From Actinomycetes bacterium (GTDB lineage: Bacteria > Actinomycetota > Acidimicrobiia > Acidimicrobiales > Acidimicrobiaceae): a stretch of DNA of 39,632 bases. The stretch is from positions 1 to 39,632 of the forward strand of contig JAKAQL010000016.1 of assembly GCA_021822605.1 (NCBI GenBank), written 5' to 3'. A model generated the notes under the pieces. That model did not search any database. It saw only the letters and a list, made by a program, of their open reading frames with translations, and was not told the DNA's origin. Both the position numbers and the translations under genes were made by a program. Positions 26,818-39,585 of this stretch are shown here, piece after piece (positions within the stretch are counted from its first letter, which is position 1; every line of letters starts with the position of its first letter).

Positions 26818-27168
26818 TCTAGCAAATGCCCATCCGATTGACCTGCCGTCTCCAACAACTTTTCACCAATCGAGTTTTGACTTTCAGTCCCTAGGCGTGG
26901 ACCGTCACGCCGATAGTCTGACCCACTCCAAACCTGGACCACCGTCACGAGAAGGCTGTTTTCTTGCGCCTGTCCAGCAATAATGCAGCGCAGAGCCCAC
27001 GCTACATGCAAGTGAACACACCGAACACGAGGAAAGAACGATGCGGCTGCACCGAACGGCTATCGGCTACAATCTGACCGCTCCCCAATTCACCAAGGCT
27101 TGAGTCTGATCCACCAGTAATTGATCTCACCGCACAACCCTCAATCGCCCAGCGGAATCCTTAACAAG
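26818..27168. other. Intergenic, no gene seen
   Basis: About 350 bases between the Fur-family operator and the stop of the F420-type gene. Only short frames without features. No repeat or tRNA seen. Confidence 0.5.
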
Positions 27169-28208: not shown

Positions 28209-28379
28209 GGCCCCACTAAAGCGTTGCACCTAATCTGGTGTTCATACCAAATCCATACTGTCACGCCACTCGTGTCTACACGTTCAGCCAGTTGTTAACT
28301 ATCCACCCAGTTCGTAGGTGATATTGGGGTCAGAAGTGGTCGTAGGATCGGCTAAAGCACGGGAAACCGGCTTGTAGCG

Positions 28380-28441
28380 AGTTTCGCAAACGTGGGCAGG
28401 GCAGTTTCACAAACGGCCCACCAAGGGCCGTTTGTGAAACT
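28380..28441. repeat. Palindromic repeat, copy A
   Basis: AGTTTCGCAAAC (28380-28391) is followed by a perfect palindrome: left arm AGTTTCACAAACGGCCC (28403-28419), loop ACCAA, right arm 28425-28441. An outer pair GGGCAGG (28394-28400) and CCTGCCC (28449-28455) could extend the structure. The same arrangement recurs in copy B at 39447-39507. Confidence 0.85.
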
Positions 28442-28445
28442 AGGC

Positions 28446-28518
28446 TGACCTGCCCGAACACACAATGAGAAACTGAAAAATCCTCTCTCAACTTCACGAC
28501 TATCCTGTTTTATGATGG
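28446..28518 (+). repeat. Conserved segment beside the palindrome, copy A
   Basis: This segment aligns without gaps to 36777-36848 and, for its last 39 bases, to 39547-39585. The shared core starts ATCCTCTC and includes CGACTATCC followed by a T-run. Each copy has a TNAACT-like hexamer and a TATNAT-like hexamer 17 bases apart. Confidence 0.75.
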
Positions 28519-28828: not shown

Positions 28829-31483
28829 CTAAGCGGGGTCGAAGTGCAGCACGGAAGCGTTACCAATCGACGCATACCGCTCTGGAGATGCAGTCATCAA
28901 AATCACCTGGGCCACCTTGGCAGCCTCTGCAAACACCGGGCCGAGCCTTTTGAGTCGCACTGGATCAGCAAATCCGAGAACGTCATCTAGAATTACAGGG
29001 GCGCCTGCATCGCCCGTGGACCCGGTTGGTTCGACGAGAATCGCACATGCAAGTGCGGCAATCACCGCCAGTTGCTCACGAGCGCCAGTAGAGAGCTGGG
29101 CAAAATCTACCGACGTTCCATCGAGGGTTCTCGATACCACACGAAAGTCCGATGGATCGATACGGATCTGAACCGTAGGACCGAACACAAACCGCGCCAG
29201 CCTGTTTACCTCGTCCGCGTACGGCTTGGAGCGGGCTTCACGGGCAGCCTCGCGATGCCTGGTAAAGACATTGAAGAGTAGCCCTGCTGCTCGCGCACGC
29301 CGTTCCAAAGCCTCATACTCTCGACGTTCCATATCGAGCCTCCTCTGAGCAGCCTCGAGATCGGCCTGCAAATCCTTATCGCCCATACCTCGCAACTCTC
29401 CGGCGATCCCGTCCCGTTCGGAGCGCTCGGTGTCGAGTTGGTCCTGAAGGCGGGCTTGCAGCGCATCGAGGTTCGCCGCACGCGCCTCTACGACCTCAGG
29501 CTCGGCCAGGCCGAGGCGCTCCGAGACTTCGGCCTCATGAGTGCGCGCTTCGATCTCCTTCTGGTGCAGTTCGTCGACAATTTGGGAAACCTCATCATCA
29601 CCTCTTTCCAGACGTGCCTCTCGCAATGAGGCGTCGACTCGGTCCAGACCCTCTGTGGCCTGGACCAACTCTCCTTCTACTCTGCTCGCTCGAACCCTTA
29701 GCTCGTTCAACTGTTGCTCAAGCACCCCACGCTGTTCAACCTTCCGGTCACGATCAATGCAGAGTCCCTCGACATTCGCCGCTACGTGGGCTGCAGTCGC
29801 CCTAGCCTGTTCATGGGCCACTGCATCGTAGAGGGAATCCGCATCCTCGACAAGTTCGAGCGCATTCTCGTGCTTCACGCGTAACTCTTCTGCTGAGAGA
29901 CCATCGAGCGCGGCAGAAGTGCGTTCCTGCGCAAACTTCAGCTGTTGCTGGGCTGAGTCAATCGATGCGAGACGTCGGTTCAGATCTTCCATAGGGTCGG
30001 CAAGATCGAGCCCCAGCTCTGCCACCAGGTCATCCAACTTCGTCTGAGCCTTCTCGAACGCATTGTCCTTCTGCGAGTCAGTCTGAGCACTAATGGTCAC
30101 CGTTGCCACATCTCCAATGGCGATTTGGGTCATACCATGGACGTTGATCTGTTTGGCTTCGCCTGCCTGCACTAGTTCGCTGACACCATCTACGCCGATC
30201 GTGAGATCGGTTGTCGGCTCCACCGTGACCAGCGGTCGAGATGCCCGTCTGATGACATCAGCCTCCCTGACGTCGGAAATCGCCCTGTCGAGAAGCTTCC
30301 GACTCTTGGACTCAATACCGGCGTTCGTCTCTAGGATACGCAAAGCCTCAATTCGCGAATGCTCTGCCTGCTTAAACTCCTCGATCCTTCTGCCTAGACT
30401 CTCAACCTCAAGTTGTGCCTCCCAAAGTCGCAGTCGTTGCTGCGCCCCTACCGCCTCGCTCAATGCAACCGCGTAGGCATCCTCAGCCCCCAAAGCCTCC
30501 TGCTTGGCTTTGGCGTAGTTCTGATCAAGCTGTGATGCCTCACCAGCCAGCCGTTGCTGGTCTTCTCTGAGCCTCGCTACCTGAGCCTCGGTCTCAAGCC
30601 TGCGTTCAATCAGTTCGGAGCGCGAGTTCCTCAGGGTTTCGGCATTTGCTCGCTGCAACTCCACCAATTTTCGAGCGCTGGTCGCTTGACTCACCTCTTC
30701 CTGAAGAGACCGAATCGCTACCAGCTGACCATCGAACTCCTCGCGATCTTTCGCACACTCTTCCAGCTGTTTCTGAGTTTGAACGATCCGTTTACTCAGT
30801 TCGGAAAACTTTGAGCCTAGACTTTCGAGGCGATCGAGCTGGCTCTGTGCGCGTTCCAAGTCTGTTTCTGCGCTCGCAAGGAGCTGTTGCTTTTGGACTC
30901 TGTCGCTTTTCGGCTTACCAGTTTGGGTGAAGTAGGTTACGTATTCGGCCCTGATCCGGTCAAACAGTGTTGCCTCATTCTCTGGCTCCGCAGCACTAGC
31001 GGAAGTAGCGCGGTCCAGAGCGGCCATGAGCGAGACGGACTCTACCATGGAATGCTGATTAACCGCAGAACCCTGCACAAAGCGGAGCGCATCAAACAAA
31101 GATCGGTCGAGCTTGTCCTCGAGTAACTGATTGACCCGGTTGTGGGCATCACGTCCTGTTAACTGTTCGGGGTGCGGTTCTGAGATGACAAGCTTGGTCT
31201 CAGCATTTTTCACCCACCGCTTCGAGTAGGTAAACGTCACATCTGCCAGAGAGATCTCGGCTTCGACCTCGGGTCCCACATCGTCTGCGATAGGCTTGAG
31301 CGCCAGGATATCTTTGCTTCTCGAATCATGGGGAAACCTCAATAGCACATCGAATGCCTCGGCTATAGATGACTTGCCGACTTCGTTGGGACCGACTAGC
31401 AGTGTTACGCCGTGCGAAGAGAATTCTACGGTCCTCTCCTTTACTCCCTTAAAGTTTCTGAGCGTGATCCGAAGCAGCCTCAC
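28829..31483 (-). CDS. Rad50/SbcC-like coiled-coil ATPase (YhaN/AAA type)
   Basis: 884 residues. Walker A GPNEVGKSS is at 31-39; the ABC-type signature LSTGAREQ begins at about 797 and Walker B VILDDVLGFAD at about 830, so the two ATPase halves flank a long coiled coil rich in Glu, Arg and Gln. The Cys-x2-Cys zinc hook of Rad50 is missing; instead a beta-rich insert lies near 430-490 (PLVTVEPTTDLTIGVDG and following). The gene starts with GTG overlapping the stop of the nuclease gene (GTGA). Together they should form an Mre11/Rad50-type complex that processes DNA ends. Its place among mobile DNA would also suit a defence role. Confidence 0.8.
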   Translation of the reverse strand: MRLLRITLRNFKGVKERTVEFSSHGVTLLVGPNEVGKSSIAEAFDVLLRFPHDSRSKDILALKPIADDVGPEVEAEISLADVTFTYSKRWVKNAETKLVISEPHPEQLTGRDAHNRVNQLLEDKLDRSLFDALRFVQGSAVNQHSMVESVSLMAALDRATSASAAEPENEATLFDRIRAEYVTYFTQTGKPKSDRVQKQQLLASAETDLERAQSQLDRLESLGSKFSELSKRIVQTQKQLEECAKDREEFDGQLVAIRSLQEEVSQATSARKLVELQRANAETLRNSRSELIERRLETEAQVARLREDQQRLAGEASQLDQNYAKAKQEALGAEDAYAVALSEAVGAQQRLRLWEAQLEVESLGRRIEEFKQAEHSRIEALRILETNAGIESKSRKLLDRAISDVREADVIRRASRPLVTVEPTTDLTIGVDGVSELVQAGEAKQINVHGMTQIAIGDVATVTISAQTDSQKDNAFEKAQTKLDDLVAELGLDLADPMEDLNRRLASIDSAQQQLKFAQERTSAALDGLSAEELRVKHENALELVEDADSLYDAVAHEQARATAAHVAANVEGLCIDRDRKVEQRGVLEQQLNELRVRASRVEGELVQATEGLDRVDASLREARLERGDDEVSQIVDELHQKEIEARTHEAEVSERLGLAEPEVVEARAANLDALQARLQDQLDTERSERDGIAGELRGMGDKDLQADLEAAQRRLDMERREYEALERRARAAGLLFNVFTRHREAAREARSKPYADEVNRLARFVFGPTVQIRIDPSDFRVVSRTLDGTSVDFAQLSTGAREQLAVIAALACAILVEPTGSTGDAGAPVILDDVLGFADPVRLKRLGPVFAEAAKVAQVILMTASPERYASIGNASVLHFDPA

Positions 31484-32640
31484 TCCGAACCCCCTACTAA
31501 CCGATACAGGGTTCGAAGTGCAAGCACAGCGTCCTCGTTCGGTGGGGTGCCGGTGGCCAACCCTGCCAGTTCGGTAACGACAGCATCACCGTAGCCACCG
31601 ATGACGAGCTTCGCCAAATCTGCCTCATCAACGATCAGAGCAATGTTACAGTGGTCTTCGGATAAACGCACGGACGCAAAGGTGTCATTTGCTTGATCAA
31701 GCATCTCATCCAGTTCAGCTTGTTCTGCTACGTTGAGAGTTCCCGTGATCACGAAGCGCAGGGCGGTTCGTGAACGATCCCCCTGAAAGGTAAGTCGTGC
31801 CCGTATCGCGTCAAGCAGGTCCATTCCGGACATTTCGATTTCCTCACGCAGAAAGCACCACTGACCTACCTTGACTGAAGCGATGTCGATGGCAGCGACA
31901 TCGACATCGACGAGGAGCGCGCAATTCGTCGAATCGACATCTTCCCGAAAGTCAGTCATGAGGGGTGCTCCGGAGTACCATACCCGTCCAGTCCGACCAA
32001 TCTCGAGGCTCGAATGGCGATCTCCAAGAGCGAGATAGTGGATGATCCCTCGCTCAATCGCGTCCTCCACTTGGTCGAGCCGAATTAGGTTCTGGTTTGT
32101 AGGGTCAGGATTGATGGCATCAACGCCACCATGTCCGACAAGTAAGCGCACGGTCCCTTGAGGTGGCGGTTCCAAACCCGCAAGGGTTTCGGCCACGAGA
32201 TCTCGGTCCGGTCGCCGACTCGTCCATGGTGCGCCAACGATCTCCAACTGACCATTAGCTAGGCTGTGAACGGTTGAATCACGAAGGACCGTTACCTGGG
32301 ATGACAATCGGGACGGCAAATCCCAGCTGGTCCAGATTGCCTCAGGACTGTTAGGATCATGATTCCCGGGCAACAAGAAGACTGGAACCTGAAACTCATT
32401 CAATGCCTCGACCGCACGGGACACGACGGAACGTCTTGGTTGCACTGCATCGAACACATCTCCAGCAATCACCACAGCATCGCAATTGGCCTGATTCGCA
32501 ATACTCGCCAAACTCCTGAGGGCGCCAAATTGATCGTCCGTGTACCTCGCTTGGGCTTGCACATCAAAGAATCTTCTGGTCATTCCCAACTGCAAATCGG
32601 AGGTATGTAAAATCCGAGGCACCACTCCACTGTAGTCCAA
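31480..32640 (-). CDS. Mre11/SbcD-like DNA nuclease subunit
   Basis: About 386 residues. Metal-site motifs of a calcineurin-type nuclease: HTSDLQLG (Gln where many have His), GDVFD, GNHD, VGHGG and GDRHS in order, followed by a C-terminal region likely to bind the ATPase partner. The DxQ form of the first motif occurs in a known branch of DNA repair exonucleases. The start is unclear: TTG at 32640, or GTG at 32625 or 32622 near a GGAG. The stop overlaps the ATPase start, so the two are coupled. Confidence 0.8.
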   Translation of the reverse strand: MDYSGVVPRILHTSDLQLGMTRRFFDVQAQARYTDDQFGALRSLASIANQANCDAVVIAGDVFDAVQPRRSVVSRAVEALNEFQVPVFLLPGNHDPNSPEAIWTSWDLPSRLSSQVTVLRDSTVHSLANGQLEIVGAPWTSRRPDRDLVAETLAGLEPPPQGTVRLLVGHGGVDAINPDPTNQNLIRLDQVEDAIERGIIHYLALGDRHSSLEIGRTGRVWYSGAPLMTDFREDVDSTNCALLVDVDVAAIDIASVKVGQWCFLREEIEMSGMDLLDAIRARLTFQGDRSRTALRFVITGTLNVAEQAELDEMLDQANDTFASVRLSEDHCNIALIVDEADLAKLVIGGYGDAVVTELAGLATGTPPNEDAVLALRTLYRLVGGSE

Positions 32641-33159
32641 GTATGCAGCGCTCGGCGGTTAGGAAGAACCTTGCTCAACGAGATGTCGACAGGAAAAACG
32701 TCGGCGCTGTCATCACCCGGTTGCCCAAACTACGACGCCGAGATGGTCTTGACAACCACCAGGGTGATGAAGGGTCATCGCCCGACGCTTAACTCAGCCT
32801 CTCTGAAATAAGCGCTACAAGCACTCCATGCCTTCCACCCGACGATCATGGCGGGAGTTGACATCGATGACAGAAGCTACGTAGCCACTGGAACTCTTGT
32901 CATGGGCGCAGGTGATTTCAGCACACCCTGTGAATCACCCCGGGTTAAGTGGAGACTCCTACTCTTGATTCTATTGCAAGCACTGGCGCTCTTGAATCGG
33001 CCGCTTCTGTTTTCAGTCGCAGCAGAGCTCCTCGAATGGTTTGTGCGTGAGCATCCGGGCGAGCTAGAGATTGAGTGCGGGACTACGACGAGAAAGGTTC
33101 ACTACGATCGAATCTATCGGGCGTGGCAACGTTGTGCCAGCCTCATCGAGCAAGGGGCC
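32641..33159. other. Region between the nuclease gene and istB
   Basis: About 520 bases. The istB frame remains open upstream to 32848, adding about 104 codons (with LLLLILLQALALL and a following EWFVREHPGELEI stretch) that do not resemble IstB or IstA. This could be a chance extension, a fused fragment, or a small separate coding piece. No istA gene is visible. Confidence 0.35.
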
Positions 33160-33867
33160 ATGGAGCTGCGACTACCAGGTATTCGGGCTCACTACGCCCA
33201 ATACCTCGAGGCCGCTAGGCGCGAGAACTGGAGTCATGCCCACCTCCTGGCCGAATTGCTCAGTATCGAGCTATCGCTTCGCGAGACGAGACGATCTGCG
33301 CGTCTCTTGGCTGATGCTAAGGTGCCCCGCACCAAGCTCTTGGCTGAGTTCGACGTCGGCTCCTCGGCGATGAGCCAAGACATGCTTGCTTGGCTTGCCC
33401 GTGGCGGCTTCGTAGCCAGCGCTACCTCTGTCGTGCTTATCGGTGGACCGGGAACAGGCAAGACCCATCTGCTCATTGGAACCTTTATCGCTCTTGCGGG
33501 TATAGGGAGACGGGTGCGCTATGTCAATGCGAGTGCCCTGGTCAACGAATTAGCAGAGGCAGTGGACAAGAGAAGGCTGAGCCGACTGCTTGAACCCTAC
33601 GCCCGTTATGACGTCTTGGCAATTGATGAACTCGGTTACCTCCATCTCGACCGTCGTGGATCGGAGCTTCTCTTTCAGATAATCACCGAACGAGAGGAGT
33701 CCCCCTCGCTCATGGTAGCTACCAACCTCCCCTTTGGGGAGTGGGCGAGCAGTTTCACCGATGCTCGTTTGGCGGCTGCTGTCGTTGACCGTATCACCTA
33801 CCGATCCAAGATTATCGAGACAGGTATCGACTCCTACCGGCTCAAATCGGCAACGAACTCGAACTAG
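33160..33867 (+). CDS. istB: IS21-family helper ATPase IstB, without istA
   Basis: 235 residues from the ATG at 33160, the usual IstB length, with AAGGGG close upstream. It begins MELRLPGIRAHYAQYLEAA and carries Walker A GGPGTGKTH, Walker B VLAIDELGYL and the later LMVATNLPFGEW. IstB is the AAA+ helper that assembles the transposition complex for the IstA transposase. No istA precedes it, so this is an orphan or decayed IS21 element. The open frame extends upstream to 32848 with unrelated residues. Confidence 0.8.
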   Translation: MELRLPGIRAHYAQYLEAARRENWSHAHLLAELLSIELSLRETRRSARLLADAKVPRTKLLAEFDVGSSAMSQDMLAWLARGGFVASATSVVLIGGPGTGKTHLLIGTFIALAGIGRRVRYVNASALVNELAEAVDKRRLSRLLEPYARYDVLAIDELGYLHLDRRGSELLFQIITEREESPSLMVATNLPFGEWASSFTDARLAAAVVDRITYRSKIIETGIDSYRLKSATNSN

Positions 33868-36548: not shown

Positions 36549-37042
36549 GCAGTAACAGTCCTCTCCTTAGGCCAGGCAACCAGCGAAGCTATGCCCAAGA
36601 ACGACTCAGTTAAGGTAGAAGATCCCCTCCAGGACTGTCAGTACACCACGATCTACCCCTGGTGACTCATTCCAACGTCTCAAGAGCCAATCCTGCCTTC
36701 AATGGGACCCCTCTGGCACCATAACCAGTCCCCCGGAGCGGAGGACCGCCCTTCTTCGCTTGTTTTAGGGCTAGTGTGACCTGCCGTAAGGCAAGGTTGC
36801 AAACTGCGAAATCCTCTCTTAACTTAGCGACATTCCTTTTTTATTATCTACGAATCGTGGCTTCTGACTTGAGACCTCATGCCAGATCGGATAACCATGA
36901 GGCTATCGCTAGCTCGATGCGTGATTGCCTACGAACACTCTTGCCTCAATAGTTCAGCCGGGCTATCAATGGTACTGCCAACTGAGCTGTTCAGGCTCAA
37001 TAGACTCCATGGAGGACATAAGAGTCGATCTCTCGTGAAGTG
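36549..37042. other. Non-coding stretch carrying repeat copy C
   Basis: About 490 bases between the IS1380 fragment and the MntA/HepT promoter. It holds repeat copy C (36777-36848, listed separately). The remainder shows no gene; the IS1380 right terminal repeat should be in the first 100-200 bases but I could not fix it. Confidence 0.4.
36777..36848 (+). repeat. Conserved segment, copy C (palindrome lost)
   Basis: Aligns without gaps to 28446-28518: TGACCTGCC, 15 variable bases, then AAACTG and the conserved ATCCTCTCT core. TTAACT (36819-36824) and TATTAT (36842-36847) are 17 bases apart, the best promoter-like pair among the three copies. The upstream palindrome of copies A and B is absent; only scattered likeness remains. 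Confidence 0.7.
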
Positions 37043-37081: not shown

Positions 37082-37480
37082 ATGATGAAGCGTGAGGACG
37101 GCTCGCCAAGGAAGACCCATAAATCGGCGCAAAATGATATCGCTGCTTCTCAAGGCATGATTAGCGTTTACTCGCCCAGCCTCCCAGACACTCCGCTCGG
37201 TCATCAGCTCCGCAAGAGTCGATACGCAATATTAGACTGCGCGGCACGTCATGGAACGAGCAATATCCGCGTCTTTGGCAGCGCGGCACGGGGTGAAGAC
37301 GGGCCAGACAGCGATGTTGACTTCGTAGTTGACGTTGGTAAAGGGACCGGGCTATTTGCTCTGGAAGCTCTGCGGAGGGAACTTTCAGAGATCCTTGGCG
37401 TGTCAGTTGACGTTGCTCCCTCAGACAGTCTCCGACCACACGTTCGAGCAGAGATCGAACGGGATGCCATCCCACTATGA
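37082..37480 (+). CDS. mntA: Minimal nucleotidyltransferase antitoxin, MntA type
   Basis: 132 residues if the ATG at 37082 is used; the ATG at 37157 is an alternative that still keeps the whole domain. The nucleotidyltransferase motif fits GSX10DXD exactly: G66-S67, ten residues, D78-V-D80, with the third acid at D110 in VSVDVAP. In known MntA/HepT pairs, MntA adds AMP to a tyrosine of the HEPN toxin and so silences it. The stop overlaps the hepT start (ATGA). A strong promoter with a very short leader precedes it. Confidence 0.82.
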   Translation: MMKREDGSPRKTHKSAQNDIAASQGMISVYSPSLPDTPLGHQLRKSRYAILDCAARHGTSNIRVFGSAARGEDGPDSDVDFVVDVGKGTGLFALEALRRELSEILGVSVDVAPSDSLRPHVRAEIERDAIPL

Positions 37481-37863
37481 GTTCGCGTCATGACGACGAG
37501 CGCCTAATCGACATTATTAACGCGATTGACGCGATCAGAAGCCACCTTGCTCGTGGCGATCTCTCTGACGGACTCATTTTCGATGCCGTTCGAGTGAGAT
37601 TAATCGAAATTGGCGAGGCAGTTAAGGCGCTGGACCCCGAGCTTGTTGCTAGTCAACCAAATGTCAAGTGGTCTGACGCAGCTGGCATGCGCGATTGGCT
37701 AGCGCACCACTACTTCGACACATCCCGTGCAACGATCGAAGCAACCATCATGGAGGACCTCCCCCCTCTTGAAACTGCCGTTCGGCGGTTGCAAACACAC
37801 CGTAAACCTACTGAGAAACACCCTGGCAGCTTGCCGGGTAAGGATTTTAGTCTTGGAAGCTAG
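37477..37863 (+). CDS. hepT: HEPN-domain RNase toxin, HepT type
   Basis: 128 residues, mostly helical. The catalytic RX4HXY motif is intact: R72, H77, Y79 in MRDWLAHHYFD; Y79 is the residue modified by MntA in studied systems. GLIFDAVRVRLIEIGEAVK upstream is typical for the family. HepT cuts RNA when freed from its antitoxin. The right end of the tnpB element lies only a few bases past the stop codon, so the last residues (after about position 110) may have been changed by that insertion. Confidence 0.83.
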   Translation: MSSRHDDERLIDIINAIDAIRSHLARGDLSDGLIFDAVRVRLIEIGEAVKALDPELVASQPNVKWSDAAGMRDWLAHHYFDTSRATIEATIMEDLPPLETAVRRLQTHRKPTEKHPGSLPGKDFSLGS

Positions 37864-37913: not shown

Positions 37914-39125
37914 TCACGCGGCCTCAGGTGGTTGACGCTTCGTTGGGTCGCTGTGCTTGAAAGCGTGCGATGTCCCTTGACGTCCTGTGACCGCAAGTCC
38001 TGCGGCGTAGATATTGATGGCTGCATTCATATCAGCGTTGGCAGTATGTCCGCAGGATTGGCACAAGAATACCGCTTGGCTCTGACGGTTCTTCTTGTCC
38101 GTGTATCCACAGACTGCACAGGTCTGACTCGTGAATGCAGGATTGACGACTACTACCTCCGACCTAGTGGTAGCAAAACGGGCTTTATCGGTGAGGCGCT
38201 GTTGGAACAGTCCCCAGGCTTGAGATGAGATAGAACGATTGAGTCCGGCTTTTTGTCGAACGTTCTTGCCAGGACACGCCGTAGTACCTTTGGCCGAGCG
38301 CGACATGTTCTTGATCTTGAGATCTTCGATGCAGATGATGTCGTAGCGTCTCACGAGATCGGTTGTTGTCTTTTCGATCCAGTCTTTGCGACGGTCACGC
38401 TCTCGAGCCGAGATGATAGCAATCTGTCGTTTGGTGCGGTTGCGTCGATTAGAGCCTTTGACTTGGCGAGCCATCTTGCGCTGTAGTCGTCTCTTGCGTT
38501 GGGACTCGCCCTTGCTCAACAGAGTTGGCATGGATATCGCTTCGCCGTCCGACGTAGAAACGGACACAGCCACACCCAAGTCGAGCCCTACCGACTTGTC
38601 GGTTCAGGTGCGCTCGAGCGACCGAGGTGGAGTCGTGAACGACACAAACCACCGTCTGGCACGATCAAGTGTGACTCGTGCCGAAGTTGCGGACTCTATT
38701 TCAACCCACGGTCGGCTGATCCGAAACCTAACCCACCCGCACTTGGGGATGAGCACTTGTCCCCACTTACGGTTGACGCGCCTTACCGAAAGATCCCGCA
38801 CAGCAAAGCCCTCGTTGATACCGGCTTTGCGCCAAGTTGGTCTGCCAAAGTGGTCTGGTCTTTTCCACCAGTTTTGAAACGCACGGTCGAGGTCACGTAG
38901 GGCCTGTTGCTGGATCGCAGCAGAACCTTCTCCTAGCCAGGTACTTTGGCGAGCCTCCGTGAGTTCGTGCGATTGGACATTAGAAGTTATTCTCCATGTG
39001 CGATCTTTTGTCCACGCGTTACGCTGTTCAAGCCCAAGATTCCACACATACCGAGCATCTGCACAATGTCGTACAAGAATGGATTGCTCTTTTTCTTGTG
39101 GGTACATGCGCTCGCGTATACTCAT
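37914..39125 (-). pseudogene. tnpB: TnpB RNA-guided nuclease interrupted by an in-frame TGA
   Basis: About 403 codons on the minus strand from the ATG at 39125. After SLERT a TGA stop lies at 38604-38606, and the same frame goes on TDKSVGLDLGVAVSVSTSDG to 37914. The RuvC acids are all kept: Asp in GLDLG, Glu in IICIEDLKIKN, Asp in ANADMNAAINI, and the zinc-finger pairs TCAVCG and CQSCGH are intact. TnpB cuts DNA with an RNA guide transcribed from the element's end. One changed base (for example CGA or TGG to TGA) would explain the break. It is probably dead; a second start at GTG or ATG after the stop would lose the N-terminal RNA-binding half. Confidence 0.82.
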
Positions 39126-39200: not shown

Positions 39201-39446
39201 CGCGTTTGGTAACGTTTCTGACCAAAGAGCCGACCACCCAGATCTCGACCAAGACTCGTACCTCTAGGCGAAGCCACAGAGACACCTAAGCCATTCTCCA
39301 CTTCAGGTAGTTCCACCCCAAGGCAGAGCCCTGCCCTTGGGGTGGAACTTTTGCTAGGGAGCCCTATCAGCGACCACTGATTACTGCTTTTAGGGCAATA
39401 ATTACTTACAATCAGTCGACATGGAGTCAAGGCAATTTGCTATCTG
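39201..39446. other. Intergenic between the tnpB element and repeat copy B
   Basis: About 245 bases with no supported gene; contains the inverted repeat at 39309-39349. Confidence 0.4.
39309..39349 (+). terminator. Strong inverted repeat followed by a short T-run
   Basis: AGTTCCACCCCAAGG (39309-39323) and its exact reverse complement (39335-39349) enclose 11 bases that can pair further (CAG/CTG). TTTT follows at 39349-39352. It could be a terminator or the end of a mobile element; no gene reads into it from the left on this strand. Confidence 0.4.
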
Positions 39447-39507
39447 AGTTTCGCAAACAAATTTATCCAGTTTCGCAAACGGCCCTTGGTGGGCCGTTTG
39501 CGAAACT
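39447..39507. repeat. Palindromic repeat, copy B
   Basis: AGTTTCGCAAAC (39447-39458), ten bases, then a perfect palindrome: AGTTTCGCAAACGGCCC (39469-39485), loop TTGGT, right arm 39491-39507. Same layout as copy A, with one arm base changed on both sides and the loop reversed. Confidence 0.85.
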
Positions 39508-39511
39508 CACC

Positions 39512-39585
39512 TGAACTGGGAGAATGTCCTCCTCGGAAGCGTAGCTATCCTCTGCTAACTATACGACTATCCTTTTTTAAATGTT
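39512..39585 (+). repeat. Conserved segment beside the palindrome, copy B
   Basis: Begins TGAACTGGG (compare TGACCTGCC in copies A and C). The ATCCTCT core at 39547 aligns without gaps to the other two copies over 33 bases, 26-27 of them identical in each pair, counted by eye. Confidence 0.7.

Follow-up and report, generated by a model that had tools for sequence, protein, structure and literature searches.

Abutting transposon ends in an Acidimicrobiaceae contig suggest a family of putative DDE elements placed beside tRNA and tmRNA genes

The window analysed here, a 39,632-nucleotide stretch of contig JAKAQL010000016.1 from a member of the Acidimicrobiaceae (assembly GCA_021822605.1), holds a dispersed palindromic repeat in three copies, A, B and C, which we interpret as the probable ends of transposons encoding a putative DDE transposase (OrfC) and a companion protein (OrfB). 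Units A and B share one layout, in which the 12-mer AGTTTCGCAAAC is separated by about ten bases from the 17-bp arm AGTTTCRCAAACGGCCC, and this arm is followed by a 5-bp spacer, the arm inverted and a tail of about 75 bases; copy C keeps the tail with most of the arm gone. The original prediction, made from the letters of the window, had reported that copy C retains only the last segment and that a 33-base core aligns without gaps, and both observations held, the tails of B and C matching that of A gaplessly over 33 bases at 82% identity. A fourth candidate at 26931 (64% identity) looks like chance. With P denoting the right end of an element and P' its left end, the units divide in our reading as follows:

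28341-28419, + strand: right end (P) of an element to the left of A, with 12-mer sites at 28380 (28380-28391) and 28403 and the terminal repeat AGTTTCACAAACGGCCC at 28403-28419; like ends adjoin tRNA 3' ends elsewhere
28420-28424, no strand: 5-bp spacer ACCAA, at the position of a target duplication and in the orientation opposite to that of B
28425-28518, + strand: left end (P') of the A-B element, with the terminal repeat (inverted arm) at 28425-28441 and a subterminal segment of about 75 bp, the conserved tail, reaching about 28518
36771-36848, + strand: copy C, a degenerate left end (P') with most of the terminal repeat missing
39408-39485, + strand: right end (P, second type) of the A-B element, with 12-mer sites at 39447 (39447-39458) and 39469 and the terminal repeat at 39469-39485
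39486-39490, no strand: 5-bp spacer TTGGT
39491-39585, + strand: left end (P') of the next element, with the inverted arm at 39491-39507 and a tail to about 39585, cut by the contig end at 39632

The left-end tail also holds ATCCT twice, 22 bp apart (28480-28512 and 39547-39579), possibly as extra protein-binding sites.

A 161-base query around A gave nine matches at E ≤ 0.001 in its own 2.82-Mb genome, including A itself, A's own palindrome, B, C and three sites on other contigs, and was matched in all six other genomes of the genus searched and in 11 of 41 genomes overall; a palindrome scan of viral contigs returned no matches. Together with the coordinates, these beyond-chance matches confirm the predicted combination of half site, palindrome and tail, and the earlier view that nearby insertion sequence (IS) remnants do not explain the repeat was right. 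The BLASTN count of copies in the host and its relatives, which the original prediction had proposed, did find further places, those on the other contigs (C88, C28 and C50; C, G and L mark contigs, genomes and loci) carrying the left half of the unit, P, only. There P adjoins a tRNA gene called by ARAGORN at C88 (tRNA-Ala, partial copy) and C28 (tRNA-Val), and a tRNA-like fragment, judged by eye, at C50. At locus L074 (G000:C88, 8234-14516) a tyrosine integrase gene (432-amino-acid frame) is flanked by a full tRNA-Ala(TGC) and a partial copy, the layout of an ordinary tRNA island, and the transposon right end lies beyond the partial tRNA-Ala copy.

A search for the 17-mer with up to three mismatches gave an overall total close to that of a reversed-pattern control, and of its places nearly all those with zero or one mismatch, and some of those with two, were taken further. 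The arm survey took in the window and 36 loci (L042 and L080 being one place) and yielded 49 arms, of which some with two or three mismatches are probably chance. For ten arms a called tRNA is no more than 12 bp away (Ala-TGC three times, Val-CAC twice, and Ala-CGC, Gln-CTG, Gly-GCC, Leu-CAA and Leu-CAG once each); the Leu-CAG case belongs to another genus, and one of the ten, at L062, is a P' end. Eighteen of the 49 form nine P/spacer/P' junctions, with a spacer of 5 bp throughout except for 6 bp in L064, and subterminal sequences fall into several types for P and two for P', so that the halves assort independently. In transposon terms the arms are terminal repeats, with the 5-bp spacer at the position of the duplicated target. 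As read in the Ferrimicrobium-group ends, the element appears asymmetric, with two motifs at P and one at P'.

Terminal inverted repeats with a fixed short duplication enclose three delimited elements in the genus: one of about 5.5 kb beside tRNA-Gln with AAAGC at both sides (L073), another, about 5 kb long and next to a fragment of tRNA-Val(TAC), with ACCAG at both sides (L071), and one beside tRNA-Ala with ACCAA at both sides and P' at both ends (L062, 5722-10928). Uninserted sites resembling that of L071, in which a tRNA-Val(TAC) 3' end is followed by the same downstream sequence with a single ACCAG, occur in G000, G002, G003 and G006, with a further one at a second locus of G004; two more loci have downstream sequence of this type with a single ACCAG beside tRNA-Val fragments. 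The L073 site is uninserted in G004, where tRNA-Gln and a single copy of the pentamer precede homologous downstream DNA (by BLAST to within 32 bp, the rest by eye). At L216 and L217, tRNA-Val(TAC) fragments are followed by normal downstream sequence, which suggests that tRNA-Val(TAC) is a repeated insertion hot spot.

Inside P, the gene nearest the end is orfC, with orfB overlapping upstream and, in the two full Ferrimicrobium-group copies, orfA before orfB (orfC 555 amino acids in G000:C88 and 554 in G006:C354; orfB 329; orfA 182 and 204). In the copies examined orfB and orfC overlap or adjoin, and orfB accompanies orfC in 24 of 30 loci of the class Acidimicrobiia. None of the three proteins from these two copies matched a Pfam or NCBIfam family above its curated cut-off, so as far as tested the element is no known IS; the original prediction would have been undone had the unit always been the terminal part of one known full-length IS, and what we find is that its halves are indeed element ends, of an element without a match above cut-off in the families searched. 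The two Ferrimicrobium-group OrfC proteins lacked a meaningful Pfam match and resembled the IS1182 family only weakly (NCBIfam NF033551, 4e-5 and 0.0023; 22.7 and 16.9 bits, far below the cut-off of 270); in the comparison with IS1182 and DDE_Tnp_1_6, PF01609 and PF13751 matched one of seven OrfC sequences. Comparison with phage records gave no match, and with solved structures one chance match (E 0.98). D189, D294 and E474 are invariant in all seven, including those from Nesterenkonia and Streptomyces; by our own assignment they would form the catalytic triad of a DDE-type transposase.

OrfB aligned to Xer in hhalign with probability 83 (E 8e-6), PF00589 matched two of 14 members, one copy had weak XerC/XerD matches in NCBIfam, and all 30 Foldseek matches of its structural model at E ≤ 0.001 were tyrosine recombinases. 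Compared by eye with Xer, none of the 14 OrfB sequences has the His of the HxxR motif or the second His/Trp, all 14 have the Arg of that motif, and none has a complete catalytic set. The alignments and the model support a predicted tyrosine-recombinase fold without the catalytic histidines.

To place these genes more widely, an orfC profile was run over 395 Acidimicrobiia genomes at 1e-10 and matched at least 38, a lower bound since at most three candidates were scored per genome. Fifty of 56 rows were used, in two batches of 30 and 20 (the others being G003:C17, G003:C1, G000:C50, G015:C77, the window itself and the second piece of the L193 element), and we set aside L185, L204, L205 and L238, where the match ends before profile position 480, and L189, L234 and L240, with no tRNA and less than 400 bp of downstream DNA. 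In 30 of the 43 assessable loci a convergent tRNA lies 125-388 bp past the end of the orfC match, and in five of the remaining 13 a convergent transfer-messenger RNA (tmRNA; ARAGORN, Rfam RF00023), giving a called tRNA or tmRNA at the expected side in 35 of 43; no tRNA was found upstream of orfC in any of the 43, within the DNA examined around each. L188 and L194 have a tRNA-like T-arm and acceptor at that side without a called gene, in a scan with some chance hits. A family-level search matched 23 of 42 genomes and added 17 assessable loci outside the class set, 11 of them with a convergent tRNA at 104-546 bp. Over both surveys the targets are tmRNA and tRNAs for 13 amino acids (Ala, Arg, Gln, Glu, Gly, Ile, Leu, Lys, Met, Ser, Thr, Tyr and Val). 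More distant relatives carrying both orfB and orfC occur in Nesterenkonia and on Streptomyces plasmids (seven records at 26-27% identity, both genes present in the three examined, where they are annotated as hypothetical proteins). The three plasmid loci, L174, L175 and L176, share the order of a 162-177-amino-acid protein, an opposite-strand regulator, orfB and orfC, a four-gene set in which only the regulator has a functional name and which in L174 follows type I-E CRISPR genes.

Across the class, no more than a few bases separate the tRNA end from the start of the element on that side. Paired P motifs (seven of nine bases identical) were counted in 27 of the 30 tRNA loci (L177, L224 and L227 being left out), and 18 of these right ends have them at a lag of 23 and six at 22, with at most two right ends at any other lag between 15 and 31. 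Distal ends were sought upstream of orfC as arms with up to 4 of 17 mismatches and an exact 5-bp duplication in 16 of 20 regions (L178, L180, L250 and L257 were too short), and found in six (L242, L244, L247, L249, L252 and L253), with the left end about 5.3 to 12 kb from the end of orfC. The same search succeeded in 1 of 240 trials with ends swapped between loci, 0 of 160 shuffles and 0 of 16 in the wrong orientation. By site, the duplicated bases are AAAGC, ACCAG, ACCAA, TCGAG, CGAGT, GTGGT and GTGGC.

We estimate a probability of roughly 78% that each unit is the P end of one transposon abutting the P' end of its neighbour, the elements moving by DDE transposition with OrfB as target selector. 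The comparison of loci supports inverted terminal repeats of about 17 bp, a 5-bp duplication and a P end that mostly lies against a tRNA or tmRNA 3' end. OrfC would cut and join the ends, occupying a pair of sites 22-23 bp apart at P and a single site at P', and OrfB, no longer cutting, would read the T-arm and acceptor end and recruit the transposase there, as TnsF does for Tn6022; these parts are common to tRNA and tmRNA, which would explain the breadth of targets. The tRNA 3' end would stay in place after insertion, and repeated insertion into the same 5 bp beside it would create P/TTGGT/P' junctions such as B. On this model, further element sequence and a tRNA should lie to the right, past the point at which the contig stops.

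Several results weigh against this reading. No tRNA was found within the window, none was found in the DNA examined at the Nesterenkonia locus and the three Streptomyces loci, and no tRNA or tmRNA was called at eight of the 43 class loci; of the six remaining family-level loci, L143 is a tandem copy, tRNA-like fragments adjoin L142 and L162, and L152, L155 and L163 are without a tRNA. The elements at A-B and L061 are flanked by ACCAA on one side but TTGGT on the opposite one, hence no direct duplication, and do not belong among those with terminal repeats and a fixed duplication. Spacers at B and five other junctions have the TTGGT orientation (TTGGC in L069) and three of nine the opposite one, ACCAA (A, L061 at 5206 and L063), and the orientation in these three is not accounted for by repeated insertion. 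Both ends of L062 are of the P' type, and one of these lies at the tRNA; the tRNA at the filled L071 site is a fragment, so its uninserted counterparts are same-sequence sites and perhaps not orthologous; and no distal end was found in 10 of the 16 longer loci. The structural models are poor: that of OrfC (AlphaFold predicted local distance difference test, pLDDT, 35.1) was not used, and that of OrfB has low confidence (pLDDT 49.5; Foldseek template-modelling scores 0.31-0.45, root-mean-square deviation mostly 14-18). OrfB also keeps the first catalytic Arg in five and the Tyr in 10 of 14 members.

The strongest rival has OrfC alone picking the tRNA end, with OrfB an end-binding regulator or repressor. 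The targeting role of OrfB is reached by inference only, and its weak Foldseek matches (E about 0.1) include SroF, titled a phage repressor, so tyrosine-recombinase-like folds can regulate; set against this are the overlapping or adjoining orfB and orfC and a choice of targets typical of tyrosine integrases, and we regard the arrangement as unlikely, at something like one chance in four. We think it distinctly improbable that A and B serve as att sites for a tyrosine recombinase, at which OrfB or a host Xer recombines as in ordinary tRNA-gene islands. Such sites would suit the symmetrical arms round a short spacer, the choice of tRNA 3' ends, the tandem arrays and the OrfB fold, but the 5 bp vary from site to site, being duplicated around insertions and single where nothing has inserted, which led us to reject this reading; none of the 14 OrfB retains either catalytic His (by eye), and the tRNA-proximal gene is the DDE gene. 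Integron attC sites and Xer pdif modules were likewise rejected, as the 5-bp spacers vary and equal target duplications, leaving no fixed crossover site; no integron integrase was specifically sought beyond the PF00589 search.

Two further explanations are very hard to credit. A miniature inverted-repeat (MITE-like) non-autonomous element, promoter cassette or small-RNA family, which the unit's length of about 140 bp, dispersal and palindrome had suggested, was rejected since the halves are found separately, each with its own long subterminal sequence and joined to different partners; the original prediction of a non-autonomous mobile unit pointed in the right direction as to mobility, the unit itself being a junction of two elements' ends and not mobile, and nothing was found in support of small RNAs. 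Nor are orfB and orfC plausibly passengers of islands placed by ordinary integrases, despite tRNA genes being island hot spots and an integrase gene lying between the full and partial tRNA-Ala at G000:C88, because 30 of 43 loci keep a fixed order, orientation and distance, the end sequence directly meets the tRNA end, and a duplicated 3' part of a tRNA would be far longer than 5 bp.

DDE transposons with OrfB as a putative selector have partial counterparts among known systems. Tn6022 uses TnsF, whose tyrosine-recombinase domain is inactivated, to steer a TnsABC/TniQ machine to comM (PMC10293859); by analogy the present elements would likewise combine DDE transposition and target duplication with steering by such a protein, whereas their core is orfB-orfC (two copies also having orfA), their transposase is distantly IS1182-like and they target tRNA or tmRNA ends. 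The homing CRISPR-associated transposon (CAST) I-D (CyCAST), also homing beside a tRNA gene, uses TnsD at tRNA-Leu and inserts about 30-33 nucleotides beyond it (PMC10293859), whereas insertion here is at the tRNA 3' end itself and many different tRNAs are used. A 5-bp duplication and asymmetric ends with repeated motifs recall Tn7-like elements by analogy only; scans of OrfA, OrfB and OrfC against Pfam and NCBIfam, which did not extend to all other open reading frames, gave no match to TnsA, TnsB, TnsC or TniQ/TnsD, and as these proteins are absent as far as tested we do not class the element as Tn7-like. Dada elements, eukaryotic DNA transposons targeting tRNA and other small RNA genes (PMC3706591, PMC8869645), are comparable in target choice. 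Islands of tyrosine integrases in tRNA and tmRNA genes (Islander, PMC4383910) share the kind of target gene and the OrfB fold, but the elements here make 5-bp duplications, are bounded by terminal inverted repeats and have a DDE gene nearest the tRNA. No bacterial DDE element that pairs with an inactive tyrosine recombinase and sits at tRNA ends was described in the literature searched, which was mostly open access and covered by titles and abstract openings.

The interval between A and B holds cargo together with orfC remnants:

28829-31483, - strand: AAA/SMC-type ATPase, best PADLOC match LmuB (3.6e-16)
31480-32640, - strand: calcineurin-like metallophosphoesterase, overlapping the ATPase gene
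32700-32786, + strand: probable orfC C-terminal remnant (weak protein match, iE 0.16; DNA 77% identical over 120 bp to L071, 1e-20)
32962-33150, + strand: orfC remnant (95% identical to residues 60-122 of the G000:C88 copy) that shares an open frame with an IstB-like ATPase
37082-37480, + strand: MNT-type nucleotidyltransferase of an MNT/HepT pair
37477-37863, + strand: HepT-like protein
37914-39125, - strand: IS605-type TnpB split over two frames (37914-38579 and 38604-39125), with HepT on one side and the right end on the other

The open reading frame at 32848-33867 is IstB-like and begins with orfC transposase sequence, an apparent in-frame fusion after insertion or deletion. At L061 (5776-8608) another MNT/HepT pair is interrupted by an insertion that looks like an ISKra4-type element. 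Cargo elsewhere was scanned in three delimited elements, nine proteins by PADLOC and ten, with one more from L249, by Pfam: L247 carries type I restriction proteins, L249 a PDC-M32A candidate along with a partial DRT-associated nuclease match, and L253 a Schlafen AlbA_2 protein with partial matches to pAgo models, several proteins of these three elements having no PADLOC or Pfam match. Some members carry genes resembling anti-virus defences.

Many DNA-cutting transposons insert loosely, and integrases insert at exact tRNA sites; here DDE transposition and exact tRNA-site choice have apparently merged in one compact system, small enough that site-directed insertion would be easy to test. If this is true, OrfB would be another dead recombinase serving as target selector, beside TnsF. 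We lean slightly towards a family spanning the Acidimicrobiia in which a DDE transposase may have co-opted a catalysis-stripped tyrosine integrase, independently of TnsF, as a general reader of the tRNA and tmRNA T-arm and acceptor end, building tandem arrays of defence cargo beside undamaged tRNA genes, and such a family could explain some of the defence genes that lie beside tRNA genes in this class.
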